From positions 1-33,686 of the IMG/VR virus record IMGVR_UViG_3300028610_002416: a stretch of DNA of 33,686 nt; one strand, given 5' to 3'. The DNA comes from a virus. Below the pieces are notes generated by a model that searched no databases, was not told where the DNA came from, and saw nothing but the letters and a program-made list of their open reading frames with translations. Positions 4,323 through 27,669 of this stretch are shown here, in pieces (positions within the stretch are counted from its first letter, which is position 1; every line of letters begins with the position of its first letter). A program made the translations under genes and the position numbers.

Positions 4323-6449
4323 TTATTGATTGCTCTTAATCGCGCCACGCGTCTCGATGACCGAGACGGCGAAAAACCAGCGGACTTTGATCGGCAAAAC
4401 GTCGTGGAGCCACAGGATATGGTTGTTCTCGCTGGGCGCGAAAACCTCCGGGGTCTCGCCGAAGCGAAACGCCACGCCCGCAAAGGGGCAAACATTCTTA
4501 TCCGCCACCGCACACCAATTGTTGGCGTTAGTCCAGTGGGGGACCGTAATGATATCCTCCTCGCGCAAAAGCCGTTTGCCAGGGTAACGGTCGGCCAACG
4601 TGCCGGCCTTGACCGCTGAGGTCGTAGCGGTGATACCCTGCTGCTCCAGCTCGATGGGTACCAATAATTTGCGCGGGCGAGTGGCGATGCGACGATCTTC
4701 AGTTTGAGAGGAGTTTTTGAGTTCGGCAAGTTTGTACATTTGTTCCACCGCCATCCCCCAGGTGTCTTGGTCCAGAGCCTGGGTGATAAGGTTGCCGCGG
4801 GTCGTATTAAACGCATAACCATTCCCAATGCTATCGCTAAGATCAGCGCCCGCGCCACTATTATCGGTAAACAGCGAGGAAATAACATAACTAATCGTCA
4901 CCACCTCCGCCACTGCTAATTGACGGGGCACAGCCCGCCAGCCGGCCACGTCATCACAATCAATCATCTCCAAGGACAATGGCAGATAGCCACCCTTTTT
5001 GACCCAGGTGGCCGTTGTTCTATCATCCTCCCATAGAAGTTGCTGGTACTCGCCTTTCTCGGCAACCGTTGGCAGCCCCACGCCCGAATCGTACCCAATG
5101 CCGCCGTATTTCACCCAGGACACCTGCTGCAACGAATTAAAGTCCTCGGTGTGCGCAACTTCCTTCCACCAATTGTACTCGTCCATCAGATCGATTTGCT
5201 GGATGAGGCGCTTGTTCATCACGTTGCGGGTAAGTTCGGCCATCGTGCTGGTGTCCGCGTTGTTGCCGCCGCTCGAATAAGCCAAGAAGGAGGGCACTAA
5301 ATCCGGGTTATACTCCCCCCGAAAACTACGGTCACCGGTAAGCAGCAGATAAAGCTCACGGATGCCGGAGAGCTGATGCACCGGCCCAGAGACCGGCAAG
5401 CCCATCAGCTGGTCGTAGGCCATTTCGACTTGATCAAAGCTATTCAACCACGACCCTCGAATGTTCGCCGGTTGCCGATCACACGGCGCGATCCCGACGC
5501 CCATCTCATCGATGACGCGCCTTTCCTCGCCACGCGCGTACTGCGTAGCTAAGCTTTGATTGAGTTGGCCAACGGCGTCAGCTAAGTTGACGACGACGGA
5601 CTCCAGACGGTCGAGGCGGTCAGGTACGGCCGGAGCATCGTGGCTCAGGCTCTGGCTGTGCATCTCGGACGACAGAGGGGGACGTATGGTGTGAGTGTGA
5701 GTCCGGTCGCCACCCGGCGCAGCCAGATCGCAGCCGACACGCATACGCGGCGGTAAATCGTTTGGTGCGGCAGCCTCAGCAGAGGTAGAGGTCACCGCTT
5801 CTTCCGTAACTTGAATTTCTTCAGGCATAATATGAACCTCCGTTCTATTTAACGCGCCGGAATCGACGCGAGATAATACTTCTCTGATTCGGCCTTCCGC
5901 CCCAGGGCCAAAGACTACATCAACACTTTCGACGTGGTCAATGGATGTGGTGACGCGGATCCGATCCTCATCGTCCTCCCCTTGCCACTCGGATTGACCA
6001 AAGAAAACGATGGACAAACCCACATCCGGCGTCTCACGGCCCGCTTTCTGATCTTCTACGATCTCATCGAGCAACACCCGCAGCCATTCCAGATCGGGCC
6101 GAGCTGAAAGCCTAAGCCCGCCATCCGCCCGGCCCGCTTCTTCATTCCAGGTTGCGCCGAACGTCACGCCGGCTAGACTGCGTAATGAAGGATGCGCCGG
6201 GGTGAAAAATCCACCAAGCGTGTGGTCGACAAAGGAAGCCACACCGCCGAATTTCTCAATCGCAGCCTGCACCGTCGAGCGTGGAATGTTCCAGTCAGAC
6301 TCCTTCCCATCCCGACGCCGAACCCGGCCGGCCTTGATAAACGACACATCGTACTCCCTACGCGAATCACCGCTAACGCTGCCTAAGCGCAATGGCATAT
6401 AGACCGCGTCGGGCCTAGTCTCCTGCTGCTTAAGATTGACTTCTTCCAT
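4323..6449 (-). CDS. Fused prohead protease - major capsid protein
   Basis: 708 residues. Residues 1-190 match the HK97-type (S78) prohead protease: His76 in SFVDHTLGGFF, Ser146 in PDVGLSIVFF, and acidic residues 174-177 in HVESVDVVFGPGAEG. Residues about 208-310 form a variable helical delta-domain/scaffold-like segment (DRLDRLESVVVNLADAVGQL). From about 320 to 708 the protein is capsid-like and ends KVRWFFAVSVIETRGAIKSN. The protease should cleave the scaffold region during head maturation. AGGAGG lies 7 nt before the ATG and directly abuts a 23-bp palindrome (6462-6484). An internal start at residue 208 has its own strong ribosome binding site, so free capsid chains (501 residues) are probably also made. 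Confidence 0.88.
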   Translation of the reverse strand: MEEVNLKQQETRPDAVYMPLRLGSVSGDSRREYDVSFIKAGRVRRRDGKESDWNIPRSTVQAAIEKFGGVASFVDHTLGGFFTPAHPSLRSLAGVTFGATWNEEAGRADGGLRLSARPDLEWLRVLLDEIVEDQKAGRETPDVGLSIVFFGQSEWQGEDDEDRIRVTTSIDHVESVDVVFGPGAEGRIREVLSRVDSGALNRTEVHIMPEEIQVTEEAVTSTSAEAAAPNDLPPRMRVGCDLAAPGGDRTHTHTIRPPLSSEMHSQSLSHDAPAVPDRLDRLESVVVNLADAVGQLNQSLATQYARGEERRVIDEMGVGIAPCDRQPANIRGSWLNSFDQVEMAYDQLMGLPVSGPVHQLSGIRELYLLLTGDRSFRGEYNPDLVPSFLAYSSGGNNADTSTMAELTRNVMNKRLIQQIDLMDEYNWWKEVAHTEDFNSLQQVSWVKYGGIGYDSGVGLPTVAEKGEYQQLLWEDDRTTATWVKKGGYLPLSLEMIDCDDVAGWRAVPRQLAVAEVVTISYVISSLFTDNSGAGADLSDSIGNGYAFNTTRGNLITQALDQDTWGMAVEQMYKLAELKNSSQTEDRRIATRPRKLLVPIELEQQGITATTSAVKAGTLADRYPGKRLLREEDIITVPHWTNANNWCAVADKNVCPFAGVAFRFGETPEVFAPSENNHILWLHDVLPIKVRWFFAVSVIETRGAIKSNQ
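5826..5841 (-). promoter_or_regulatory. Internal ribosome binding site for capsid-only product
   Basis: On the minus strand GGAGG (5837-5841) lies 8 nt before an in-frame ATG (5826-5828) that begins MPEEIQVTEEAV. This is exactly where the protease domain ends. It would yield a 501-residue scaffold-capsid chain in addition to the 708-residue fusion, fitting the need for hundreds of capsid subunits per few proteases. Confidence 0.7.
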
Positions 6450-6461
6450 TGTAATGCCTCC

Positions 6462-6484
6462 TATCTGGGGAAATTCCCCAGATA
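6462..6484. repeat. 23-bp perfect palindrome, copy A
   Basis: Two 11-bp arms (TATCTGGGGAA) around a single central base. The same palindrome recurs at 20881-20903 and 27670-27692, where the outermost pair is C-G instead of T-A, so symmetry is kept by a paired change. This copy lies between the portal stop and the capsid gene and ends where the capsid Shine-Dalgarno (6455-6460) begins. It could be a protein-binding DNA site or an RNA hairpin next to the ribosome binding site. Confidence 0.9.
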
Positions 6485-6503
6485 CTAGTTGTCCTCGAAA
6501 TTC

Positions 6504-7928
6504 CTAGTCCTCGCCCTCGTCCTCTTCGTCCTCCTCGTCCTCATCCCCTTCTTCCTCCGGGTCATCCTCATCGCCCTCTCCCTCATCCTCCTCCTCAAAA
6601 ATCAGATCGTGTTCAGCGGCCCAATCGAGGATCTCGTCAATTTCCTCTTGAGATAAAATCTCGCCGAAGAATTTGAAGCACAATCCCACGGCCAGCTCAT
6701 CGGTAATCCAGCCATAGCGCCGCATCTCGCTGAACGCCGCCACGATGTCCCGCGCCGCTTTGGCCAGCGCCGCGTTGTCCGCCTCGCTGACATCCGGCAC
6801 GCTGAAGTCAATACGTAGATCATCATTGACCGGGATCCGGACGTGGCTGGCCTCAGCCGCTCGACGATAGACGAAGTCAACCAAGTCTATCAACGCCTCG
6901 CCGAAGTCCGCCTGACGCATTTCAAGAAATGAATGCGTAGGCCCGCCCATCTCCTTCGCCGTAGCCCGGTTAGCGCCGGAGCCTTCGCCGAAGAAATGGA
7001 GCGGGTAGTTGCTGCCAGCGCTAATCGCCATCCTTTGCGCGTGGCCATCCGGGGCGGCGTCGCCGGCGTTGATGTTGGCGGCGGGGAACTTAATCCGCTC
7101 GCCGCGACCGTGGACAAAGAGGGCGCCGCTAATTGGCGGCGTGGTCTTATACTGCTGGCGCTTGGCCTCGATCTGGCTGTCGTCGTCGATCTCGATGTCT
7201 ACGGCGGCCAACTCCGCTCTGAGTTTGTTGAAGCGCACGCGACCCTTCAGCCAATCGGTGTAGCGCTGCGCGACCGGCAAGACCGGCGTCAAATCCGATT
7301 CGCCACGAGTGGCGCCGACCACGCGGTTGAAGGCGAAGTGCAGCAGCGCCGGCTCATCGAGCGCCGCCGTGTGTCTGCTTTTCCAGACCTTCGGCTCAAT
7401 CTGGCCGGGTACAGTCTCCTGATATTCGAGTTCGCGCTCGTAGTCGCTCGGATCCGTCTCTACGTGCTGAATACACGAGGCCGGGATAGCGCGGACAAAC
7501 GCCAGGCCGTCCGCCTCGCTTGGCGCAGAGACGGCGATGAACAGATCCCCGGAGCGCGTCACCTCATCGCACCAGCTCGAGAGCCGCGACCGGAGCCGAT
7601 TCTCTCGATGCTCCCAGAAACGGCGGGTGAAGCGCTCGACGGCCGGCCGCTTGGAGCTGATGCCGATGCCCTGGCTGCCAACGACGTAGCTCGTGGTGAT
7701 GGTGACGATACGCCGAATGATGAAGTTGCGCCGCCAGGCTTCGAGGGTATCGGTCAGGTCCTCGCGGAGTTCGGCCCAGGGCCGATCAGCCGGGCCGGAA
7801 CCAGAGCGGACCAGGTCCCAACCGGCGTCCTCTGTCGCTTTCGCGGCCGGCAGCGGACCGGCGACGATGCTGGCCAGGGTGACGCGGCGGCGGGCTATCC
7901 AGTTGGTGAAGCGTTGCCATAGATTCAC
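6504..7928 (-). CDS. Portal protein
   Basis: 474 residues from the chosen GTG at 7928. That start has GAGGA 7 nt upstream and overlaps the preceding mini-gene's stop as GTGA; a GTG at 7946 gives six more residues but has no ribosome binding site. Family features: helical N terminus, RNFIIRRIVTITTSYVVGSQ, FTRRFWEHRENRLRSRLSSW, the region ISAGSNYPLHFFGEGSGANR followed by ATAKEMGGPTHSFLEMRQ, and a helical C-terminal region. The portal is the dodecameric DNA-entry ring at the capsid vertex and docks the terminase. The last 35 or so residues are almost purely Glu/Asp/Gly, an extreme acidic tail, possibly disordered. Confidence 0.9.
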   Translation of the reverse strand: MNLWQRFTNWIARRRVTLASIVAGPLPAAKATEDAGWDLVRSGSGPADRPWAELREDLTDTLEAWRRNFIIRRIVTITTSYVVGSQGIGISSKRPAVERFTRRFWEHRENRLRSRLSSWCDEVTRSGDLFIAVSAPSEADGLAFVRAIPASCIQHVETDPSDYERELEYQETVPGQIEPKVWKSRHTAALDEPALLHFAFNRVVGATRGESDLTPVLPVAQRYTDWLKGRVRFNKLRAELAAVDIEIDDDSQIEAKRQQYKTTPPISGALFVHGRGERIKFPAANINAGDAAPDGHAQRMAISAGSNYPLHFFGEGSGANRATAKEMGGPTHSFLEMRQADFGEALIDLVDFVYRRAAEASHVRIPVNDDLRIDFSVPDVSEADNAALAKAARDIVAAFSEMRRYGWITDELAVGLCFKFFGEILSQEEIDEILDWAAEHDLIFEEEDEGEGDEDDPEEEGDEDEEDEEDEGED

Positions 7929-8194
7929 TTTTTCTTCCTCATACACCGCACGTAGGCGAAAACACGCCGACAGCCGCAGTGATCATGGAGTGGCGGATAT
8001 GGCCCGTAGCCGCGCCGGTAAACCTGGCCGTGAAACGACCGGCAGGCATCACAAGTGTTCGACAACATGCGAGCCCGCCACTCCTCAAAATAGATTTTCT
8101 TACAGCCAGGCGGACAAACCTTGCCCTCAGGGAATACCCCACCAGGTCAACCATCTGGCCTCGGTGGCTTCTTGGCCAGCCTATAATCAGCCAT
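7925..8194 (-). CDS. Cys/His-rich head mini-gene interrupted by in-frame TGA
   Basis: An ATG at 8194 has a strong Shine-Dalgarno (GGGAGG about 10 nt upstream) and overlaps the preceding stop, but its frame meets TGA at 8147-8149 after 15 codons (MADYRLAKKPPRPDG). The same frame then stays open for 73 codons to a TGA at 7925-7927: PGGVFPEGKVCPPGCKKIYF, then EEWRARMLSNTCDACRSFHG, then QVYRRGYGPYPPLHDHCGCR. The CxxC/HxxC-rich end resembles the C-terminal tail of phage minor head (Mu gpF-like) proteins. The final TGA overlaps the portal GTG as GTGA, which supports real coding. Either the UGA (followed by C) is read through, or the gene is broken, or there is a sequence error. A 47-residue product from ATG 8068 is a weaker alternative. 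Confidence 0.55.
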
Positions 8195-8624
8195 CGAGCT
8201 TGTACCTCCCCACGCGGTTACGCCGCGCCGTATCCTCAGAGACAGCCGTGATCAATTCGCCGAGCAGCCGCTCGGAGACGCGCAGATGGGCGATGAGTAT
8301 CTGGAGATCGTCGTAGATCTCGCAGGGGACCATATCGGTGATGCCGTCTTTGTAAAGCTCTGTGATGATCCTATCGAGATCACCGCCGATCATTGAGAGA
8401 TCAGTGGCCCGGCCGCCGATCTCGCCCGGATTGCCGTGGTCACCCAGCCAACGCAAATCCTTCGGCAGCGCATAATACGCCTTCACGCCATCATCAGGTT
8501 GCCCAGGATTGCCCAACTCTCCTTCGACTGAATCCAAGCCCCTCTCCTTTAAGTAAGCGTACCATTCGTCCTGCGCAGCAACGCGGGCTGCACGGTCATC
8601 GTGTTCTTTAGCTCCATCCGCCAT
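8187..8624 (-). CDS. Small protein between large terminase and portal
   Basis: 145 residues from ATG 8624 (MADGAKEHDDRAARVAAQDE). This start is preferred because GAGAGG lies 9 nt upstream; a longer frame from 8774 lies deep inside the terminase gene. It overlaps the terminase end by 17 nt. The protein is charged and helical towards the end (ILIAHLRVSERLLGELITAV). No known motif. Not recognised; position suggests a packaging or head-assembly accessory. Confidence 0.65.
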   Translation of the reverse strand: MADGAKEHDDRAARVAAQDEWYAYLKERGLDSVEGELGNPGQPDDGVKAYYALPKDLRWLGDHGNPGEIGGRATDLSMIGGDLDRIITELYKDGITDMVPCEIYDDLQILIAHLRVSERLLGELITAVSEDTARRNRVGRYKLDG

Positions 8625-10251
8625 CGTTTTCATCCTCTCTGCGAATAACCGCGCTCTCCCCGGTCGACAAGAACAGATCCCCGGTGCGTACCAGCCGGTC
8701 CACCTCAGCCACCAGGGCCGCCGACAACAACCGGTCATCGTGAATCGAAATCGATTCACCCGTGGCCTGAACAACGATCTTGGCCGAAGGCTTCACTTCC
8801 CAGCGCAAGCCGCGCTCAATCGGGATGCCCTCAGCGAGTTCGTAGCCGCAGTGTTCGCACTGCGTGAAAAACCACCACCAATCACTAAGCTCATCCTCCA
8901 TCGAACCGGCGAAATAGCGGAAGCGCCCGGTTTCGACGACGGCCAGGAAGTCGTTGCCCAGCCTCGACTTGCCATAGCTTTTCGAAAAATCAAAAGCAAA
9001 AACGGGCTGGGACAGTTTCTCAATGAGGGCGTCGGTGATACCCTGACCCACACCCGTAAAGTCGCTCACCACAGCTACTACACGCCACTTCTGCAAATGA
9101 GCAACAAGCTGATCGAAGAGTGACGGCCGCCCAGGCATAGCCTGGAAATGCCGCGTGCCCTGATCAACCCAACAATCAACCACTTCGTAGGCCGGGCCGA
9201 TGTCGCTCGCCCCGGTGACCACGCGGACAATGGTCAGCGTGGTATAGTCCCGGCCGGCGTTGGCCAACTCCGCAAAGGCAGCGGTAGCCGCTTCATCTTG
9301 GCCGCCGACATCGACCAGGCCCACATATACATCCCCGGCTTGCGGACCATCAAGCCGAGGATGGTTCCCCTGCATCAGTACACGCCGCCGGGGAGGGAAC
9401 AACCCCGCCGCGACGTCAACCGGTTCGTTGAAATACTCGGTCCGAACGATCGGATGCTGCCGGCCGCGTTGCCGAACTTGTCCAGCAACAAAGGCGGAAT
9501 AATGCGCATTTTCAGCGCCAACAGCGTCAGGCGAGACGATGAAGACGCGCTGTTGGCCGTCTTGGGCCTCCAGCTTTTCAAGGCGTTGCTTGGTGCGCCA
9601 CAGGTAATCAGCGGTCGTACGCACGGTGCCGACGTAGAGGGCAGTGGCGTTCGTCGAGGACCGCATCGGCGTGAAGCGCCGTTCAACAGTGGGCTCGTTG
9701 TGGTCCTGCACTTCGTTCACAATGAGCAGCAGGTTAGCCGTAGCGCCTTCGGCCCGGGCCTGGGGGTAGCCAGAGAAAAAGCTACACTGAGCCGAACCCA
9801 AACCGCGCCGGGTGGGCTTTGATTTGCCCCACCATCTGCCGCCCATCCAAAGATTACTCATTCGATTCTCAAGCCTCGATACCCCTACCGAAATCTGAGT
9901 AGCTGTGGGATACGTGTGGATAATCTGTGCCTCCGTGCGATGAAACAACATCAGCAGAAAGGCCAACATCTGCGCTACGGCTTCATCCTTCCCCGATTGA
10001 CGCGGGAAAACCCACAGAAATTCGAGGCCCCGATTCATCAACACCGACTGTATAACCGCGTCAGTTGGCTCAACCTGATAGCGACGAAGCCGGAGCTGGA
10101 TGACCAGCCGCGAAAAGAGATCAATGGAAAACAGAATTTGCCGTAGTTTCTCTTTCATCTCGGTCACATAGGGACACTCGTCACAATGAAGTACAGCAGC
10201 AATAAGATCGCTTCCACAATCGGGACAACAAGAGCCAGCATGAACAGCCAT
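8608..10251 (-). CDS. terL: Terminase large subunit (packaging ATPase-nuclease)
   Basis: 547 residues. Walker A variant PRQSGKDE at 83-90, Walker B LLLIVNEVQD at 174-183, then an RNase H-like nuclease with acidic positions in VGLVDVGGQDEAATAAFAEL, VVAVVSDFTGVGQG and HDDRLLSAALVAEVD. It pumps DNA into the prohead through the portal and cuts the concatemer. Residues 8-26 form a CxxC-x10-CxxC zinc ribbon, unusual at this end. The start at 10251 has GGAGAG 9 nt upstream; a later ATG (10158) lacks one. The first 88 nt therefore overlap, in another frame, the end of a membrane-protein gene. Confidence 0.93.
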   Translation of the reverse strand: MAVHAGSCCPDCGSDLIAAVLHCDECPYVTEMKEKLRQILFSIDLFSRLVIQLRLRRYQVEPTDAVIQSVLMNRGLEFLWVFPRQSGKDEAVAQMLAFLLMLFHRTEAQIIHTYPTATQISVGVSRLENRMSNLWMGGRWWGKSKPTRRGLGSAQCSFFSGYPQARAEGATANLLLIVNEVQDHNEPTVERRFTPMRSSTNATALYVGTVRTTADYLWRTKQRLEKLEAQDGQQRVFIVSPDAVGAENAHYSAFVAGQVRQRGRQHPIVRTEYFNEPVDVAAGLFPPRRRVLMQGNHPRLDGPQAGDVYVGLVDVGGQDEAATAAFAELANAGRDYTTLTIVRVVTGASDIGPAYEVVDCWVDQGTRHFQAMPGRPSLFDQLVAHLQKWRVVAVVSDFTGVGQGITDALIEKLSQPVFAFDFSKSYGKSRLGNDFLAVVETGRFRYFAGSMEDELSDWWWFFTQCEHCGYELAEGIPIERGLRWEVKPSAKIVVQATGESISIHDDRLLSAALVAEVDRLVRTGDLFLSTGESAVIRREDENDGGWS

Positions 10252-15575: not shown

Positions 15576-15893
15576 ATGCCTGAGAAACTATCACCCACAC
15601 AGCAGGAGATGTTAGAGTGGCTAGAAGCCGGCAACTACGTAGACCTAGCCGGGAACTACGCACTGAGAAAAACAGGCGGACGTTGGATGAAAAATACGTT
15701 GATGTCTCTGGTAAATCGGGGCCTGGCCACAACCGTCGTCAAGAACGGCTGGAGCTACAAAGCCACCACCATTGAACCAGGCGGCAATTGTCCACTATGT
15801 TGGACCGGCTCCATTGAAGAAATAGAGGAAGGTCATTATTCCTGCAATAATGATCCTTGCCATTTCGAGTATCAAAGGGAATCGAATGGATGA
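15576..15893 (+). CDS. Winged-helix plus zinc-ribbon protein
   Basis: 105 residues, GAGGAAG 6-8 nt before the ATG. Residues 1-65 look like a winged helix (SPTQQEMLEWLEAGNYVDLA ... MKNTLMSLVNRGLATTVVKN), followed by a zinc ribbon (CPLCWTGSIEEIEEGHYSCN, ending C). A small DNA-binding regulator is likely. Overlaps the ATPase gene start by 8 nt. Confidence 0.6.
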   Translation: MPEKLSPTQQEMLEWLEAGNYVDLAGNYALRKTGGRWMKNTLMSLVNRGLATTVVKNGWSYKATTIEPGGNCPLCWTGSIEEIEEGHYSCNNDPCHFEYQRESNG

Positions 15894-17283
15894 GATAACC
15901 AAACCAACGCCAATCAAAGCCAACACCATCCTCCTCATCGTCCTAGCCCTCATCGCCCTCATTGGCCTCCTGGCCGCCTGGGACGCACTGACACGCTACG
16001 GCGTTATCATCGCCGCCGTCTACGCGGCCGCCGCCATCCTGAGCGCGGCGGCCTGGACAGTGGCCGTCATCGTGCGCGTGGGTTATGGCCTTAGTCGTGT
16101 CCGCAGCGATCACCGTCTTAGCCAGGCTGAAGCTAACGCTCAGCAAATCGCCATTGTCGACCAAATAAAGCTGACCGAGACCCGAATGCTGACCGAAAGC
16201 CGGCAGCTAAAAGCGTCAGCCCGGAAGGCCGAGCGGGAAGCAGACCTGTTCATCGTCACCGCCAAACGCGATGAACAAGTGTTGATCAGCGACGGCGATA
16301 GTACACGGCGGTTCACCGCCGCGCATCTCCAACTATCCGGCCAGGTCAACGGCGTTCAAATCCCGGCGACGCCAGAGCAGATCAAAGCCTGGGCCGCGTG
16401 GCACGGGCCGCGATCGCAGAGCACACCGGCGTTGGTGCAGGAGATTGCGCCGGCCGAGACGTTGCCGTTGTTGCCGGCGCTGGCAGACTGCGATAATATT
16501 TTGATTGTCGGTGGCAAAGGTTCAGGTAAAACTACGCTCCTGCAGTGGTTCGAGGCCGAACGCATCCAGAAAGGGCCAGTCATTGTACTGGACAGCCACG
16601 CCGAACCAGGGCAATGGTTCAGTCAAGTAATTGGCGCTGGCCGGAAGTACAGCAAGATCAAAGACGCTATGATCGCCCTGATCAACAAAATGGACAAACG
16701 CCACCAGCGACGCACCCAAGGCCACAAGAATTTTACGCCGATCTGCACCATTATCGACGAGTTTACCTTGTTGCCCGGCTACCTGAAGGAGCTAGGTTAC
16801 AAGTCGCAGACATATTCATTTCCAATGCTGACGGAGGGCAGAAAAGTTGAAATGTCGTGTTTGTGGGGCATCCATAGCGACCGGGTCAAGGCCACAGGCT
16901 TCGAGGGAATGGGGGATCTAAGAGAGTGCTTCGACGCCATTGCCTATCTAAAGCACGTCAAGGGGAACTACTACGCCCTAGTCGATTTCGGCGAAGGGAA
17001 AGAGGATATCCATTATATCCCGCCCGGCCCCTTCTTCGTCCAGCCAGCGCCACCGGCCGCCGAAGATTTGCTATCGTTGCCCGATGAACCGGAGGAACCG
17101 GAGCCAACCAGTACCAACGCCTACGACCCCGACCAGGCCGAACAAATCAGATCAATGTATAATGACGGCAAGACAAAAACAGAAATAGCCCAATCGTTCG
17201 GCTACAACTCGAACGAAGGAGCCATTTTCTACAAAATCAAAGCAGCCCTAGAAGCCGCAGAAACCGCTACTACTACTACATAG
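15886..17283 (+). CDS. Membrane-anchored FtsK/HerA-type P-loop ATPase
   Basis: 465 residues from ATG 15886 (AAAGGGA upstream, overlapping the previous stop). Two membrane helices at about 13-31 and 37-62, then a coiled region, Walker A GGKGSGKTT at 209-217, Walker B CTIIDEF at 287-293, and a C-terminal HTH-like region (DQAEQIRSMYNDGKTKTEIA, QSFGYNSNEGAIFYKI). This plan fits the FtsK/TraB/T4CP superfamily of membrane DNA pumps used in chromosome segregation and conjugation. It is distinct from the packaging terminase. In a phage this is unusual and suggests plasmid-type DNA transfer or segregation (inference). Confidence 0.8.
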   Translation: MDEITKPTPIKANTILLIVLALIALIGLLAAWDALTRYGVIIAAVYAAAAILSAAAWTVAVIVRVGYGLSRVRSDHRLSQAEANAQQIAIVDQIKLTETRMLTESRQLKASARKAEREADLFIVTAKRDEQVLISDGDSTRRFTAAHLQLSGQVNGVQIPATPEQIKAWAAWHGPRSQSTPALVQEIAPAETLPLLPALADCDNILIVGGKGSGKTTLLQWFEAERIQKGPVIVLDSHAEPGQWFSQVIGAGRKYSKIKDAMIALINKMDKRHQRRTQGHKNFTPICTIIDEFTLLPGYLKELGYKSQTYSFPMLTEGRKVEMSCLWGIHSDRVKATGFEGMGDLRECFDAIAYLKHVKGNYYALVDFGEGKEDIHYIPPGPFFVQPAPPAAEDLLSLPDEPEEPEPTSTNAYDPDQAEQIRSMYNDGKTKTEIAQSFGYNSNEGAIFYKIKAALEAAETATTTT

Positions 17284-17332: not shown

Positions 17333-18106
17333 GTGAACGTAAGAAACAAAGAGAGGATCCTTAATAACCGAATGGAGAAACTAAGAACCTTTTGGAGTGA
17401 CCACACGCCGACCGGCCACTGGGCGCTCGGCTGGCTGGCCGCGCACCTGGTGATCATGGGCCTGGTGACTGCGTCGCCAGTGGCGCTGCAGCGCATCGGC
17501 CTCAGCACGTTGGCCGTGGCGCTGTGCTACGCGCTGGCCAGGCGCGGGCACGAGACGATAGCGGCGGTGTCGCTGTGCGTTGTCCTCAGCGCCAATTTCC
17601 ACCTGTCGGCCATCGCAAATTATTCGCGAGGCGACCTGCATCTGTACAGCGACAACCTGGTCGTTTTCTCGGCCATCGTGTTGCTAATGGCCGGCCACAC
17701 GCTCGGCCGGCAGATGATCCTGATCACCGCCGCCGGCAATAGCCTGATCTTATTGGTCAGCCAGGCCCGGCTGGGGGCAGATGAAACGATCATTTTGTAT
17801 CTGGTGGCGGCGGCGGGCATCTACTACCACCGCAGCCAGCAGGAGCGACAAACCGAGCCGCACAAGCCCCAGGGCCTCATCACCCGCCACATCGAACGCG
17901 GCGGCTACATCGCCATCCGCCTGGAGACGGTGCGCGGCGAGGTGCTGCAGGTCCGGGTGGCCAAAGCGTACTGGGCCACACTCGGCCTAAATCGCGGGAA
18001 CCGGATCATCATTGACCAATATGAAATCCGGGCGGAGAACGGCCGGCAATATATTCAGGCGTTCGTTCTCCACTCCATTCGGAAAGTTGACCAGAGCCGA
18101 GAATAA
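17333..18106 (+). CDS. Multi-pass membrane protein with C-terminal soluble domain
   Basis: 257 residues from GTG 17333; ATG 17372 (MEKLRTFW) is an equally plausible start and neither has a good ribosome binding site. Five or so membrane helices (GWLAAHLVIMGLVTASPVAL, LSTLAVALCYALARRG, IAAVSLCVVLSANFHLSA, LVVFSAIVLLMAG, ILITAAGNSLILLVSQ, IILYLVAAAGIYYHR), then a basic beta-rich domain (GLITRHIERGGYIAIRLETV ... RVAKAYWATLGLNRGNRIII). No known family. With the ATPase and the coiled-coil membrane protein it may form an envelope complex. Confidence 0.6.
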   Translation: MNVRNKERILNNRMEKLRTFWSDHTPTGHWALGWLAAHLVIMGLVTASPVALQRIGLSTLAVALCYALARRGHETIAAVSLCVVLSANFHLSAIANYSRGDLHLYSDNLVVFSAIVLLMAGHTLGRQMILITAAGNSLILLVSQARLGADETIILYLVAAAGIYYHRSQQERQTEPHKPQGLITRHIERGGYIAIRLETVRGEVLQVRVAKAYWATLGLNRGNRIIIDQYEIRAENGRQYIQAFVLHSIRKVDQSRE

Positions 18107-18140
18107 ATTTATAATGATTATACATTGCACCACTCATCAC

Positions 18141-18228
18141 AAACAGCCCCGCGCCTGCGCGGGTCGACTGTGCGTATCGCACTCCGCAGCAATGCGGCTC
18201 CTGTATACAGGAGATAGTCTCGCTGTTT
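18141..18228. other. Four-armed hairpin cluster (structured RNA or origin element)
   Basis: A 7-bp closing stem (AAACAGC at 18141-18147 with GCTGTTT at 18222-18228) encloses four consecutive hairpins: 18148-18163 (CCCGCG/CGCGGG), 18170-18182 (GTGCG/CGCAC), 18184-18197 (CCGCA/TGCGG) and 18198-18213, a perfect 16-bp palindrome CTCCTGTATACAGGAG. It lies in the 472-nt gap before the initiator gene. tRNA features (T-loop, junction spacing) are absent. Candidates are a structured ncRNA, a plasmid-type single-strand origin, or a protein-binding cruciform. Confidence 0.6.
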
Positions 18229-18249
18229 TCACATCGCAAGCAAGAAACC

Positions 18250-18272
18250 GGGCTACTCGTAGCCTGATTTTT
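18250..18272 (+). terminator. Terminator-like hairpin
   Basis: GGCTAC-TC-GTAGCC stem followed by TGATTTTTG. A larger hairpin with a 10-bp stem (GGCCCGGTGG/CCACCGGGCC, 18315-18355) follows. The rest of the 18107-18578 gap is AT-rich before the initiator gene and holds no gene I can see. Confidence 0.5.
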
Positions 18273-18578
18273 GTCTGTACCTGAAAACGGCGAGTTTTTC
18301 GTTTAAAAATCTACGGCCCGGTGGAATTGGCGGCTAACCTTTCCCCCACCGGGCCATCACCGGGGCTTAACCCGTATGCAAACGCGCTGAGCGCGGCTTT
18401 GCCTATTTCATTTCCCCCCTCACCACCCCCCGTGGTTTTGTCCCCCCAAGCAACACAAATGACTCTTACTATTCTAATCCGACGTGCTAAGAGCCATTTG
18501 TTAAAAACAATGATATGAGCATTGTAGCACAACCCTGCACACAATTCAAACAATTCATTGGCCGAAGAGGTCCGATCT

Positions 18579-19373
18579 ATGACCAACCCTGACCCCAACC
18601 CTAACCCCTGGCCCGACGCACTCGAGATTTTGCGCACCACCACCACCAAAGCGACTTTTGACACCTGGCTGGCCAACACCACGGCCACCGTGAACGACGA
18701 CGGCAGCCTGACCATCCACGTCAAGAACAACTACGCCATCGGCTGGCTGGAGAACAATCTCCGCAAGCCGATCAGTCGCGCCCTGGCGGGCGTCACCGGC
18801 CAAGAGCTCGATATCCGCTATGAAGTCGGCGGCGGCCCGGAGCCGGAGCCGGAGCCACGCGCCAGGCCGGAGCCGGGGCCGGGGGAGTTTAGCGTGGAAT
18901 TGATCTCGTTTGATCCAGCGCATTGGGGCCACGTCATCACGCAACGCTACACGCTGGTGTTTTGGCAGCCGTTGCTCGGCTTCAGCTTCCAAGTGTGGGT
19001 CACCCTCCGCGCCTTCGCCTGGAATTTCGAGACCGAGGGCTGGCCGACGATTGAGCTACTGGCCGACATCTGCGCCAACGGCAACCGCCACCGGCTGACA
19101 GGGCGCAATGAGCGCGTCGACCGCAAGCCGCAGGTGGGGGCGCTGGAAATCTTGGCCAAGGCCAGGATCATCCACGTCAGGACCGAGGGCAAGGGCCGCA
19201 AGACGCAGTATTATTTCCGCGTGCTGGACAATCTTCCATTGCTCACGCCGCGCCAGGTCGAGGAACTGACACCGGCGCTACAGCAGCGCCACAAAGAGTG
19301 GCTGTGGAAATGCTCGATTGACTATGAGGAGTGGGAGCAGTTGGACTTTGGAAGCCTAATTGAGCCTGAATAA
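18579..19373 (+). CDS. Replication initiator: DnaA-N domain plus winged helix
   Basis: 264 residues from ATG 18579 (AGAGG 8 nt upstream; the TTG at 18558 is not supported). Residues about 10-85 match the DnaA N-terminal domain: WPDALEILRTTTTKATFDTW, then LTIHVKNNYAIGWLENNLRK and a following beta strand. A Pro/Glu-rich linker (PEPEPEPRARPEPGPGE) leads to a winged-helix region (VTLRAFAWNFETEGWPTIEL, LLADICANGN, GALEILAKARIIHVRTEGKG) and a C-terminal tail. No AAA+ domain is present. The iteron array starts 9 nt after the stop, the classic layout of an initiator and its origin. Confidence 0.78.
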   Translation: MTNPDPNPNPWPDALEILRTTTTKATFDTWLANTTATVNDDGSLTIHVKNNYAIGWLENNLRKPISRALAGVTGQELDIRYEVGGGPEPEPEPRARPEPGPGEFSVELISFDPAHWGHVITQRYTLVFWQPLLGFSFQVWVTLRAFAWNFETEGWPTIELLADICANGNRHRLTGRNERVDRKPQVGALEILAKARIIHVRTEGKGRKTQYYFRVLDNLPLLTPRQVEELTPALQQRHKEWLWKCSIDYEEWEQLDFGSLIEPE

Positions 19374-19376
19374 TTG

Positions 19377-19525
19377 CCTTGTGTCCGGGACACATCGCTT
19401 ATGTCCCGGACATAAGGAACCACGAGTCACTTATGTCCGGGACATAAGGAGCTAAAAATTCGCTTATGTCCCGGACACATCGGGCTTATGTCCGGGACAC
19501 ATCGGGCTTATGTCCCGGACATAGC
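19377..19525. repeat. Six-iteron array (putative replication origin)
   Basis: Six copies of an 11-bp core TGTCC[G/C]GGACA centred at 19387, 19407, 19439, 19472, 19494 and 19516, most embedded in CTTATGTCCGGGACATAAG. Each is nearly palindromic; the middle base is G, C, G, C, G, C, so copies alternate in orientation. Centre spacings are 20, 32, 33, 22 and 22 bp, i.e. two or three helical turns, putting all on one DNA face. Placed between the initiator gene and an AT-rich segment, this is best read as the initiator's binding array; a partition site is the alternative. Confidence 0.88.
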
Positions 19526-19561
19526 TAATATAAAAGAATAAAGATATAAGCTTATTATAAT
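19522..19561. other. AT-rich segment beside iterons (candidate unwinding element)
   Basis: Forty bases with only seven G or C directly after the last iteron, ending in TATAAT (19556-19561). It may be the DNA unwinding element of the origin and also hold the -10 box for the following gene, though no good -35 is visible. Confidence 0.6.
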
Positions 19562-19580
19562 GAAGAAAGGAATCGATTCT

Positions 19581-19874
19581 ATGAAGCACACGTTTTACAT
19601 AATAGCAAAAGTATTCGACTGTCGACCCAACGGCCGCATAGCTAGAAACTACTCCGGCAAGGCAATAACAGAATACCTCACCACACCTATCGAAGCAGAA
19701 ACCCTACGAGAGGCTGAACTTCTCGCAAAGGACATCATTGATGACATCGGCTACGATTGGCTAAAGACCAAGATCTGCTCCGAAGCAGAGCGGATGTGGG
19801 ACAGCGGATACCCAGCTTTCTTTGACCTAAAAGCACTCGAAGGGACCAGGCGCCTGAAGGGGGTGGCTCAGTGA
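19581..19874 (+). CDS. Small uncharacterised early protein
   Basis: 97 residues from ATG 19581 (AAAGGA 9 nt upstream; ATG 19560 is inside the AT-rich segment). Layout: beta strand (HTFYIIAKVFDCRPNGRIAR), then helices (EAETLREAELLAKDIIDDIG, WLKTKICSEAERMWDSGYPA). Overlaps the next start as GTGA. Not recognised. Confidence 0.6.
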   Translation: MKHTFYIIAKVFDCRPNGRIARNYSGKAITEYLTTPIEAETLREAELLAKDIIDDIGYDWLKTKICSEAERMWDSGYPAFFDLKALEGTRRLKGVAQ

Positions 19875-20450: not shown

Positions 20451-22319
20451 ATGTTAATGAAACTCTATAGTGACCTAAAACATAACCTAACCGTGATCCA
20501 ATCCCGCGCCGAAATGAACTATGATCTCGTAGACGAGTACGCCGCCGAGATGAAACGCGGCACAAGCTTCGATCCGGCCGAGGCCATTTACGATCACGAC
20601 GAAAATCACTATTATGTCTACAATGGCGCTCACCGTATCGAGGCAATGCAAAAAGCCGATGTAGGCCTACATATCAGCTTCAAAAACGGCTCCAGGGCCG
20701 ACGCGGAGTGGCTCAGCTTCAGCGCCAACACCAAACACGGCCTGCGACGCAGCCGCGCCGACAAGCAGCGCGTGACCAAAAATGCGCTACTCACCCGGCC
20801 ACACCTCAGCGACCGGGAAATCGGAAAGCACTGTAACGTCGATCACAAGACGGTGGGCAAACTCCGGGCAGACCTCGTTGCATCTGGGGAAATTCCCCAG
20901 ATGGACGAGCGAACCGTCACAAGGAACGGGAAGACGTTTACGCAGGCGGCCAGGGAAGAGCCTGAATATATGAGTAAGGCAGACATCGAACAGTCAATCC
21001 AAGCTTGGCTGAAGGACCGCCCGCCAGAATTACACCTGGAAATCCTGGCCGACATTGCCCGAAAAAACGAGGATGGCCAACGCTACTATGGAAGCATACT
21101 CAAGGCTATGCCACTAGTATACATTGAGGCCAACGTTTGGACAACGTGCCTCGCAATGTTAGAGCAGATGAAAGCGGCCAAGGCGGAGCCGGAGTATGCC
21201 ACCATCCCCCAGCTCGAGAAGGGCGTCCGGGCCTGGCTCGATGGCAAATGGTACAAAGCCCCAAAAGTACATATAGAGGTTCTGGGCGACATCAAAAACA
21301 AAACAGTTAAAGGACCGGTACGCCTACAGGGACTGGTCAACGACGACATCCTACCCGGCCCGCGACGGAAACGCGATGTAATACAGGCCTGCAATAACGT
21401 GCTGGACCAGATAAAGCAGCGCCAATGGCAGCAAGAGCGCGAAGACCTCATCTCTGCACTGATCTGCATCAACTGCGACGAGCAGACCATTGAGGCCATT
21501 GACAGCAACTCCATCCACTGCACGACCTGTGGCGACGAGTGGACTTCCGTAGTCGCCTTTGAACGCGAGAAAGACGCCTACCAGACCACCCGCGAAAACA
21601 TCACCCCAATCTCCCACGCCAAGCCGTGCCCACAGTGCAGCGGCAAAGTCTTTTACGGTAAAAGCGCCCGCCTCGATTGCAAGAAGTGCAAGAAAGGCTG
21701 GCCAACCGAAAACGAGTTCCTAGCGGACATGGATAGGCTTTGGCGCAGTGGATCGTTTGAAACGCAGGAGACCGCCGAGGCCGACCGCGACGCCGAGACC
21801 CAAGCCGCTCCCCCCGCCAACCAACCCATCTTCGCCCGCGTCCCCTGCCCCAAGTGCAACGAAATGAAGATCGAAATCAAGCCAATCGAAGATTCGGTCC
21901 TTTGCCACCACTGTAAGCAAAGTTGGAATACTATGGCCGCATTCCACAAAGAACGAATGGCACCCCGGACGGCATCCGCGCAACCCATTGCGGAGATGCC
22001 GACAGGGGACCAGGCCGAAGCCCCAGAGGAACCCACCCCCGACCCCGACCGTTGCGACGCTTGCACCGCCCGCGACTTTTACGAGCCGGAGGTCTGGGTC
22101 AAGCAATACACACAACACATCTGCCCACAGTGCCTACAAGAATTAGGCGCGGCAATGATAGCGGCGGCCAGCGAAAACAACGAACCCCCCAAAGGTCTGT
22201 CCCCACGGACAGACTTTAGCAGGCGACTGAGAGAGATTGCCTGGAAAGTCCCGGATGAAGACCTGAAAACCCTTCAGACCTGGATTGAAACAATGGAGTA
22301 CAAATATCATATATCATAA
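20451..22319 (+). CDS. ParB-like protein with four zinc ribbons
   Basis: 622 residues from ATG 20451 (AGGAGG 4 nt upstream; the open frame reaches back to 20406 without support). Residues about 1-110 form a ParB/sulfiredoxin-like domain (FDPAEAIYDHDENHYYVYNG, AHRIEAMQKADVGLHISF, then SFSANTKHGLRRSRADKQRV). An HTH follows (LSDREIGKHCNVDHKTVGKL). After two related helical blocks come zinc ribbons from about residue 339 on: CINC/CTTC, CPQC/CKKC, CPKC/CHHC, CDAC/CPQC. ParB proteins bind palindromic centromere sites. A 23-bp palindrome lies inside this gene. No ParA is seen. Host-shutoff or transcription roles are alternatives. Confidence 0.75.
   Translation: MLMKLYSDLKHNLTVIQSRAEMNYDLVDEYAAEMKRGTSFDPAEAIYDHDENHYYVYNGAHRIEAMQKADVGLHISFKNGSRADAEWLSFSANTKHGLRRSRADKQRVTKNALLTRPHLSDREIGKHCNVDHKTVGKLRADLVASGEIPQMDERTVTRNGKTFTQAAREEPEYMSKADIEQSIQAWLKDRPPELHLEILADIARKNEDGQRYYGSILKAMPLVYIEANVWTTCLAMLEQMKAAKAEPEYATIPQLEKGVRAWLDGKWYKAPKVHIEVLGDIKNKTVKGPVRLQGLVNDDILPGPRRKRDVIQACNNVLDQIKQRQWQQEREDLISALICINCDEQTIEAIDSNSIHCTTCGDEWTSVVAFEREKDAYQTTRENITPISHAKPCPQCSGKVFYGKSARLDCKKCKKGWPTENEFLADMDRLWRSGSFETQETAEADRDAETQAAPPANQPIFARVPCPKCNEMKIEIKPIEDSVLCHHCKQSWNTMAAFHKERMAPRTASAQPIAEMPTGDQAEAPEEPTPDPDRCDACTARDFYEPEVWVKQYTQHICPQCLQELGAAMIAAASENNEPPKGLSPRTDFSRRLREIAWKVPDEDLKTLQTWIETMEYKYHIS
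20881..20903. repeat. 23-bp perfect palindrome, copy B
   Basis: Arms CATCTGGGGAA/TTCCCCAGATG around one base, inside the parB-like gene just after its HTH codons. The inner 21 bases are identical to copy A (6462-6484), and all but the centre to copy C (27670-27692). Being kept inside coding DNA argues for selection on the site. Confidence 0.9.
22192..22217. repeat. Hairpin inside the parB-like gene
   Basis: GTCTGTCC-CCAC-GGACAGAC, extendable by AAAG/TTT, near the 3' end of the gene. GGACA recalls the iteron core but the dyad is different. It may attenuate or stabilise the mRNA. Confidence 0.45.
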
Positions 22320-25785: not shown

Positions 25786-25796
25786 GCGTGGTGGTC

Positions 25797-25827
<31 letters not shown>

Positions 25828-26006
25828 CTCTGCCCCCTGGCCGCCGTCTGGTCGTGGCGGGGTGCGCTCCGCGTCGTCCGTTGCCGCGTGCCGTTTGCGT
25901 TGTTGCTTGTGGCGTGCCGTTGCTCCTGCTCGCTGCCTCGGTGTGTGTTGCCCTCCGCCCTTGGGGCGTGGGGGGCGGGCTTCCGGTGTCGTTTTTCTTT
26001 ACGATA

Positions 26007-26041
26007 TTTTAATGTGACGTTAATGTTCGCGTTGTATACTG
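26007..26041 (+). promoter_or_regulatory. Promoter-like element within the A-depleted tract, copy 2
   Basis: TTTTAATGTGACGTTAATGT, then TCGCG and TATACT (26035-26040). Similar to the element before the HTH gene (24693-24727). It sits in the only A-containing island and points into the 1.4-kb A-poor stretch, so it would drive an RNA made almost solely of G, U and C. Confidence 0.5.
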
Positions 26042-27669
26042 TTAGTGTTGGTGGGTGGCGGGGTTGTCCCTCCGCCCGGTCTCTCTCTCGTGGGGGTGCT
26101 TCGTGGCTCGTCTTGGCTTGGTTCCGTCCTCTCTCCTCTCTTTCCTTCGTTCGCCCGCCGTCGCCGGCGTGGCTTCCGTGTCGGCCTCGCCGGCCGGTTG
26201 GGCCTCCGTGTCTTTTCGTGGCCCTGGTTCCGTGGCCTCCGCCGCCGTGGCCGTCCGTTGGGCCCGTTGGTTGGGCCTGTCCGCCCTCGTCGGGTTTGTT
26301 GGCCCGCTTGGTTCGTCGGGCGTGGGCTCGTGGGTCGTGGTCGTTTCCGCCGCGCCTCGCGTGTGCGTGTTCGGTTGCGCCGCTTCCTTGTCCGTTGGCG
26401 TGGCCGCGTCCTGGTCCTCTCGTGCCGGCCGTGGTGGCCTGGTTTGGTTTTAGTTGGCTTGGTTTTTCGGCCCGCGCCGGGCGGTTCCCGGCTTTCTCTT
26501 TCGTGGGGGTGTCTCGTGTCCGTTGCTCTTTCTTCGTCTGTTTGGTCTTCTCGCCGGGTTGCCGGTTCCGCCGTTGGTTCTGGCGCCTCTCGTTGGGCCG
26601 TTCGTTCCTCCTCGCGCTCTGTTTCGGGCGCCGTCTTGGTGGCCGGTTTCGCGTCGTGGGCCGCCGCCTCTGCGTTTTCGCGCCGTTGGTCTGGCCGGTT
26701 GCCTCGCCGTTGTCGTGGCGCCGTTGTCCGCCGCCGGCCGTCTGGCCTGTTCGCGGTTTCTGTCCCCGTCGCCGGTGTGGGGGGGGTGCTTCGTGGCCGT
26801 TAGCCTTGTCGGGTTTTGTGGTTCGCGCTCCCTCCCCGCCGGGGGGGGAGCTGTGGCGGCCCGGCTTGTTTCCGCCGTCGCCGTCTCCGGCCGCGGCGTT
26901 GCCGTTGGGTGCTGTGTCGGCGCCGATCAGGCCGTCCTTGTTGCCGCTCCTCCGGCCTCGTTGTCCGTGTTCGCCGCCTTTGGGTCTGGGTCCGCTTGGG
27001 GGCCTGGGTCTGGCGCTCCCGGTGTTGGGTCTGGCGCTCCTGGTGCCTGCTCTTTGTCCGCCGTTGGTTCGGTCTGTCTGGTCGGGCGTTCTGGCGCTTC
27101 CGTGTCTTGGTGGGCCGGTGGTGGGCCTGGCGTCCCTCTGCGCGCGCGCCTGGTCGGGCGCTCTGTGGCCTTGGTTCGCGCGGTTGCCGCCTCCGGGCCA
27201 GCCGCCGCCTTCGTGGGCCTGGTCGCCTCGCCCTGCCCGGCGGGGTTGTCGCCGTCGCCGTCGTGGTCGTCGTGCGGCTCCGGTTCGTGGTCGTCGTTGG
27301 CGCTGGCCGCTGGCCTTGGGCTGTTTGTCGCCGTTTTTCCCGTGCTGGCTCCCGGCGCTCCTTTGCCGTCGTCGTTCCTGCCTGCTTGGCCTGGTGGTGC
27401 GTGGGTGCCGGTTGCCGCGCGGCCCGGCGTCCCGGCCGGCTCTGGGTGGGCCTGGTCGCCCTGCCAGCCGTCGCTCTTTTAGCCGGCTTGGTTTCGGCGG
27501 GGCGGGCTTCGTGCCCGTCCCGCGCGGAGGAGAGCGGCCCGTTAGAGCCTGGGCCGCCGCGCGCGCAGCCTCACCTTTAATTTAGGCTGGTTGCGTTTGC
27601 CAAGGCGCTCCCAGTTCGGGCGTAGTGCGGAGCGCGCAATGAGGTTGTAAGGGCATTTGCACCCTTCAC

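Follow-up and report, generated by a model that had tools for sequence, protein, structure and literature searches.

Initiators of the lambda O type sit on iterons through a winged helix (WH) and use the host helicase; in lambda itself the iterons lie inside O and a separate loader, P, is encoded. The Rep_3 iteron initiators, such as RepE and TrfA, have phased iterons beside an AT-rich opening site. RepA_N plasmid initiators, as described for pSK41 and PLE RepA, bind semi-palindromic iterons through a DnaD-like N-terminal domain and carry a second domain that varies with the host (PMC7145576, PMC5703833); the first of these papers calls the way in which the replisome is brought in unknown (PMC7145576). 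In Bacillus subtilis, residues T26, W27 and F49 of DnaA domain I are essential and are needed to bring DnaD to the origin (PMC10201431; also PMC6393240). Among phages, the ‘replication initiation protein’ of Brevibacillus phage Jenst/SecTim467 (YP_009199065.1; PHROG 26369) combines an HTH_36 WH with a DnaA_N domain, has no AAA+ match and has repeats nearby, these domain calls resting on the Jenst protein, the one that was translated and scanned. A term search of the main text of the Jenst paper returned no mention of DnaA or iterons (PMC4909266). Because proteins with HTH_36 followed by DnaA_N are already annotated as initiators, the kind is known by annotation.

Here we describe a locus in the virus record IMGVR_UViG_3300028610_002416, whose 33,686 bases were analysed in full (the window), in which the two domains occur in the other order. 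We put at roughly 0.78 the probability that it holds a replication initiator together with its origin, at which WH dimers would occupy iterons, an AT-rich side would open and a DnaA domain I would recruit host DnaD and helicase. Comparison with related loci gives good support to the combination of putative initiator, iterons and AT-rich unwinding side.

The putative initiator protein and its setting

The putative initiator gene (18579..19373, + strand; stop codon 19371-19373) encodes 264 residues, in which a linker separates DnaA_N from the WH. The initial annotation had described a DnaA domain I-like module joined to a WH and lacking AAA+, a composition borne out by Pfam and by an AlphaFold model compared using VIA-align. 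Pfam places DnaA_N at residues 11-69 (18609..18785, +) with an E-value of 1.3e-8 and 34.9 bits against a cut-off of 24.6. By sequence, B. subtilis DnaA supplies the closest solved domain I (4tps, E 7.5e-7), and in the model of the whole protein (pLDDT 80.9, pTM 0.57) residues 4-84 adopt the DnaA domain I fold (4tps, Z 13.9). No AAA+ family matched the protein in Pfam at E<=1, and TIGR00362, the full-length DnaA equivalog, scored 31.2 bits and did not reach its cut-off of 343.9.

Pfam names no WH family in the window protein, and the WH domain (residues ~101-254; 18879..19340, +) was assigned to the primosomal DnaB/DnaD/RepA_N type from the model. VIA-align finds residues 101-254 closest to primosomal DnaB of Geobacillus stearothermophilus (5wtn, Z 10.3, 130 aligned). 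Modelled separately (pLDDT 84.3, pTM 0.80), the WH again had 5wtn at the top (Z 10.7), followed by 4pql (Z 6.8), a RepA N-terminal domain, and by MarR-type structures at about 6; Foldseek E-values for this part were weak (8e-3). The models give good grounds for a primosomal DnaB-like fold, as a likeness of fold and not as proof of kinship. The recognition-helix region reads GNRHRLTGR. The PHROG 26369 profile matched the window protein (E 2.4e-10) in two stretches that cover the WH and DnaA_N parts, and also matched the WH part of the relative L002; DnaA_N precedes the WH in the window protein, opposite to the PHROG 26369 order.

Upstream of the gene lie a sigma-70-like promoter and a long leader (18087..18578, +; promoter 18087-18115), partially conserved with L002, and this leader may control initiator expression. 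A hairpin within 18107-18578, GGCCCG(G/A)TGG ... CCA(C/T)CGGGCC, differs from L002 in a single pair, and that change is compensatory; it may regulate production of the initiator at the RNA level.

Portal, capsid/protease, terminase and tail genes occupy the minus strand in the left part and far right of the window, and the plus strand of the early half carries the initiator, a ParB-like protein and a DnaQ-like exonuclease. The virus is likely a tailed phage of Anaerolineae whose record bears its own initiator and origin. No DnaB_C helicase was found in ten virus records (the window and nine others); since the ends of the window record are undefined, other replication genes may be missing from it. 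The ParB-like protein (20451-22319; phrog_1033, E 1e-7) has an N-terminal ParB-like part followed by several CxxC pairs, and measures 622 aa in the window and 364 aa in the L002 homologue. A P-loop ATPase with an HTH-like C-terminal end (15886-17280) weakly matches ORC-CDC6-like and packaging ATPases. Further along, about 1.7 kb (25786-27465) are nearly A-free on the + strand and ~70% GC, with A-free runs of 407, 349, 270, 265 and 215 nt and few stops because A is scarce there; the contig of L002 holds a homologous stretch (L016 ~7601-8800; 71% over 776 columns).

Iterons and AT-rich segment past the gene

Six iterons follow the gene directly and were located by site scan, all on the + strand: TGTGTCCGGGACACA (19380..19394), TATGTCCCGGACATA (19400..19414), TATGTCCGGGACATA (19432..19446), TATGTCCCGGACACA (19465..19479), TATGTCCGGGACACA (19487..19501) and a sixth with the letters of the second, TATGTCCCGGACATA (19509..19523). 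The exact motif TGTCCSGGACA occurs six times in the window, every time inside the array (19380-19523), against a chance expectation of 0.50, and six copies were reached in none of 100 shuffles. Allowing up to three mismatches to the 15-mer site added one match, distant and taken as chance. The centres lie at 19387, 19407, 19439, 19472, 19494 and 19516, so that the number, position and steps of the iterons (20, 32, 33, 22 and 22 bp) agree exactly with the initial annotation. Its centre bases (G,C,G,C,G,C; strict alternation a priori 2/64) are likewise exact, but the alternating orientation read from them does not hold. With iterons that are nearly perfect dyads, the centre base barely sets an orientation, and centres in relatives do not alternate: L002 has six G, L014 eight pyrimidines, and L062 T4/A4/T4/A4/A4 followed by one further distant weak match. 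For this reason we reject alternating orientation as a functional feature; on this comparison the centre base alternates in the window by local accident.

Rfam found nothing over its gathering score at 18000-19700, and sub-threshold miRNA matches on the palindromes were taken as chance. No DnaA box was found from 600 bp before the initiator gene to 900 bp past its stop. Beyond the last iteron lies a putative DNA-unwinding element (19524..19568), called from base composition and relatives. This 45-bp stretch is 82% AT, the highest AT within 1.5 kb either side of the stop, confirming the AT-rich segment first noticed there. The letters GCTAATATA directly past the last iteron are common to the window, L002 and L014. 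TATAAT occurs inside the segment, which could act as a promoter.

A family with cognate arrays

It had been proposed to look for other DnaA_N plus WH fusions, and the search uncovered a family in Anaerolineae phages and genomes, of which 16 DnaA_N-first members were examined. Identity to the window protein is 75% for L002, 47% for L021 (a contig of an Anaerolineae MAG), 45% for L014, 41% for L024 and 35% for L025 and L026. An HMM search of 396 Anaerolineae genomes placed members, besides chromosomal DnaA, in at least 14 of them; by order-level search they occur in 1/20, 5/56, 5/7 and 3/48 genomes. A phylum-wide WH search yielded one of 400 genomes, among the best candidates listed (up to nine per genome). 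A tandem-WH query had no match in viral_contigs, and named phages or plasmids held no close relative spanning 80% of the query. The iteron pair pattern picked out 15 stretches in viral_contigs, one of which, L016, is on the same contig as L002. Only L014's record among the other 14 carries DnaA_N; L017 was rejected on inspection as a coding repeat, and the remaining 12 loci had no DnaA_N (0/12). Among the papers listed for DnaA_N-WH phage initiators or Anaerolineae prophage initiators, we recognised none as describing the family, and as far as these searches show, the DnaA_N-first order, the cognate arrays and the two rules described below (co-change of helix and iteron, and site symmetry) are apparently undescribed.

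Three layouts were examined: DnaA_N-WH (n=11), DnaA_N-WH-WH (n=5; L063-L065, L095, L096) and WH-DnaA_N (n=10; L066-L070, L072, L073, L075, L076 and phage Jenst). The layouts cluster in a WH tree, in which the tandem copies group together (support 84/82), WH1 and WH2 each forming a subclade of its own; the two-WH layout is thus close to one event. Long branches make the placement of Jenst, L097, L062 and L071 unsure. The WH-DnaA_N genes L067-L070 and L073, perhaps domesticated, come from one order, in which 5 of 7 genomes carry such a gene, followed in all by a gene that is alike by eye.

For each member the best-repeated 14-mer was sought in the gene and in the 400 bp on either side of it, and each of these three regions was compared with 40 shuffles. 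Past the stop, 15 of the 16 DnaA_N-first members have 3-7 copies, the largest shuffle value being 2; the sixteenth, L095, a close relative of L063, has 2 copies only. Elsewhere in these members, repeats exceeded shuffles in 2/15 upstream flanks and in 0/16 coding parts. Controls in which DnaA_N is joined to another WH (L020, L027, L028, L030) showed no array past the stop (0/4); L027 has 5 copies inside its gene and L030 has 3 upstream (shuffle maximum 2). Nine reversed-order members entered the same test, L066 without a downstream flank. Arrays lie downstream in L072, L075 and L076, where upstream copies are also above shuffles, and L067-L070 and L073 have none downstream, with 3 copies upstream of L069 (shuffle maximum 2). 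Other placements were seen in passing. L020 joins DnaA_N to a different, MarR-like WH (5902-6642) with no array, and has an exact DnaA box, TTATCCACA, at 6723, ~77 bp past the stop, with a ParB-like gene next (by eye). Repeats within initiator genes that have a C-terminal DnaA_N, a lambda O-like position, occur at L027 7143-8249 and L098 2941-3133.

Array sequences vary by member and include TATGTCC-N-GGACATA, TATGTAC-G-GTACATA, TTGTG-type, TGTAGGTGC-NNNN-GCACCTACA and others. They vary along with the recognition helix: GNRH or SNRH pairs with a TATGTCC half-site (window, L002, L014, L021), GQRY with TATGTAC (L024), and CHRQ, CNRQ, VNRQ and CHRH with TGTG-type half-sites (L025, L026, L061), a pairing that also holds for WH2 in each of the five tandem proteins. 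With classes set by eye, [CV][HN]R[QH] helices have a TGTG half-site in 8/8 cases and other helices in 0/8 (nominal p 1.6e-4, from Fisher tests on hand-made tables with relatedness not removed). Site symmetry follows the number of WHs, with dyads in 11/11 one-WH members and asymmetric direct repeats in 5/5 two-WH members; the simplest physical reading would be one WH per half-site.

Helical phasing of the iterons, also claimed initially, is not significant when taken from the window steps only (p 0.13) and emerges when the family is pooled. The untrimmed steps of up to 46 bp (n=56) give R 0.68 at 10.5 bp and cluster at 20-25, 30-35 and 40-44 bp; outside these ranges, two steps measure 15 bp and one 27 bp. 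A trimmed list of 51 hand-entered steps, made by excluding steps >46 bp, weak chance matches and every step of L065 and L095, contains 36 values distinct per locus, with a mean cosine of 0.65 at 10.5 bp. A value as high arose in none of 200,000 random draws, and 13 of 14 loci are positive, L021 being the exception. Iteron spacing across the family is 2, 3 or 4 helical turns. The AT-rich side is similarly widespread: with last iterons picked by hand and a peak defined as a value no more than 0.02 below the local maximum, a 45-bp AT-rich stretch starts no more than 60 bp past the last iteron in 15/16 loci (chance 0.02-0.04 each). The exception, L062 (0.70), has none close past its array, and the peak of L025 is mild (60% AT).

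Proposed recruitment of the host machinery and comparison with known systems

Residues T29, W30 and Y52 of the window protein align with T26, W27 and F49 of B. subtilis DnaA, placing T, W and Y at the DnaD-contact positions. Among one-WH members T is present in 11/11, W in 10/11 and Y/F in 10/11, and nine of eleven, the window included, have all three. Two-WH members largely lack these residues (T 3/5, W 2/5, Y/F 0/5), which means that their recruitment must work differently or through another surface. Host DnaAs keep T, W and Y/F in all nine readable cases (17 loci sampled, 8 dropped for wrong strand or no usable row). A DnaD-like domain is found in 55 of 60 sampled Anaerolineae genomes and DciA in none of the 60; in G016 the DnaD-like match is on the DnaB helicase contig, ~0.5 kb after the helicase gene. 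The kept T/W/Y, the DnaD-like proteins of the hosts and the absence there of DciA, together with the lack of a DnaA box at the array, lead us to infer that domain I acts as a plug for the host DnaD route. Because the hosts encode DnaD-like proteins, recruitment at the putative window origin via DnaD, as in Bacillus, appears more likely than direct helicase loading. The earlier suggestion of an initiator that loads the host helicase on its own says too much, given that domain I is a recruitment surface and that DnaD-like proteins are so common in these genomes.

The same initiator might instead dock the host DnaB-type helicase directly or pair with host DnaA. In E. coli, domain I functions in DnaA oligomerisation and in helicase loading (PMC4980987), and the host DnaA model gives the phage domain I a high score, which keeps this a serious if rather unlikely alternative; the closest solved domain I is that of Bacillus and the hosts have DnaD-like proteins, both of which speak for DnaD, and host DnaA finds no boxes near the array. 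A role as transcription regulator of the following operon, with the array as operator and the AT-rich element as promoter, is very improbable for the protein. TATAAT within the segment and the MarR-like structures at Z ~6 would fit such a regulator, but in L014 no same-strand ORF of at least 100 aa starts for more than 1 kb past the array (a 91-aa ORF lies ~0.2 kb on) and the AT segment is still present, no copy of the site lies upstream of the initiator gene, and a plain regulator would leave DnaA domain I unexplained. Autoregulation on top of initiation is possible. Least probable of all is a parS-like centromere serving the ParB-like protein, with the WH protein as accessory: that gene lies ~0.9 kb downstream and is kept in L002 (61% over 208 columns), but ParB relatives occur in just 3 of 19 records (G773, there on another contig, and the two from which the query was built), and in all lineages the arrays follow the WH gene and change sequence with its recognition helix.

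Under the preferred reading, that of an initiator with its origin, the mechanism we infer comprises dimer binding, DNA opening, docking of DnaD and helicase, and origin activity. A WH dimer would occupy each palindromic iteron, with one WH on each half-site, and adjacent dimers would lie on one DNA face at intervals of two or three turns. Once bound, the array would destabilise the AT-rich segment on its 3' side, and the DnaA domain I modules gathered on it would dock host proteins, most likely DnaD and thereby the DnaB-type helicase and its loader, so that the host replisome could assemble at the window array without host DnaA. The DnaA domain I-WH protein is probably how the virus calls in the host replication machinery. 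More tentatively, and with somewhat less than even confidence, the family may represent AAA+-free, mix-and-match initiators in which DnaA domain I, before or after a DnaD/RepA_N-type WH, is a portable plug that brings the host DnaD-helicase route to any origin a WH can read; WH duplication would then have turned palindrome reading by a homodimer into the reading of two different half-sites by one chain. Since the recruiting module is recognisable and its contact residues are known, the question of recruitment can be tested by single substitutions. In this family recognition helix and iteron form a natural code, and iteron symmetry is set by WH number. Both could be useful for building replicons in Chloroflexota, for which, to our knowledge, few genetic tools exist.

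Set against the known systems, the window shares with DnaA the domain I fold and its contact residues, and differs in having no AAA+ match, no domain IV and no DnaA boxes at the array. With regard to RepA_N initiators, the window has palindromic iterons, and its WH scores Z 10.7 against 5wtn and Z 6.8 against 4pql; there is no Pfam RepA_N match at E<=1, and DnaA domain I, at the N terminus, takes the place of the second domain. With Rep_3 the window has in common phased iterons beside an AT-rich site, and the two-WH family members resemble the WH1-WH2 layout, whereas the window protein has one WH only and no Pfam Rep_3 match at E<=1. A WH beside iterons recalls lambda O, from which the window is set apart by lambda's iterons within O and its loader P. 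The Jenst/SecTim467 protein has the same two domains in reverse, WH first and DnaA_N last, is 26% identical over 46% of the query L068, and has its repeats inside the gene and upstream, whereas those of the window lie past the gene. Overall, the window system is real and biologically coherent, ordinary in role and unusual in construction.
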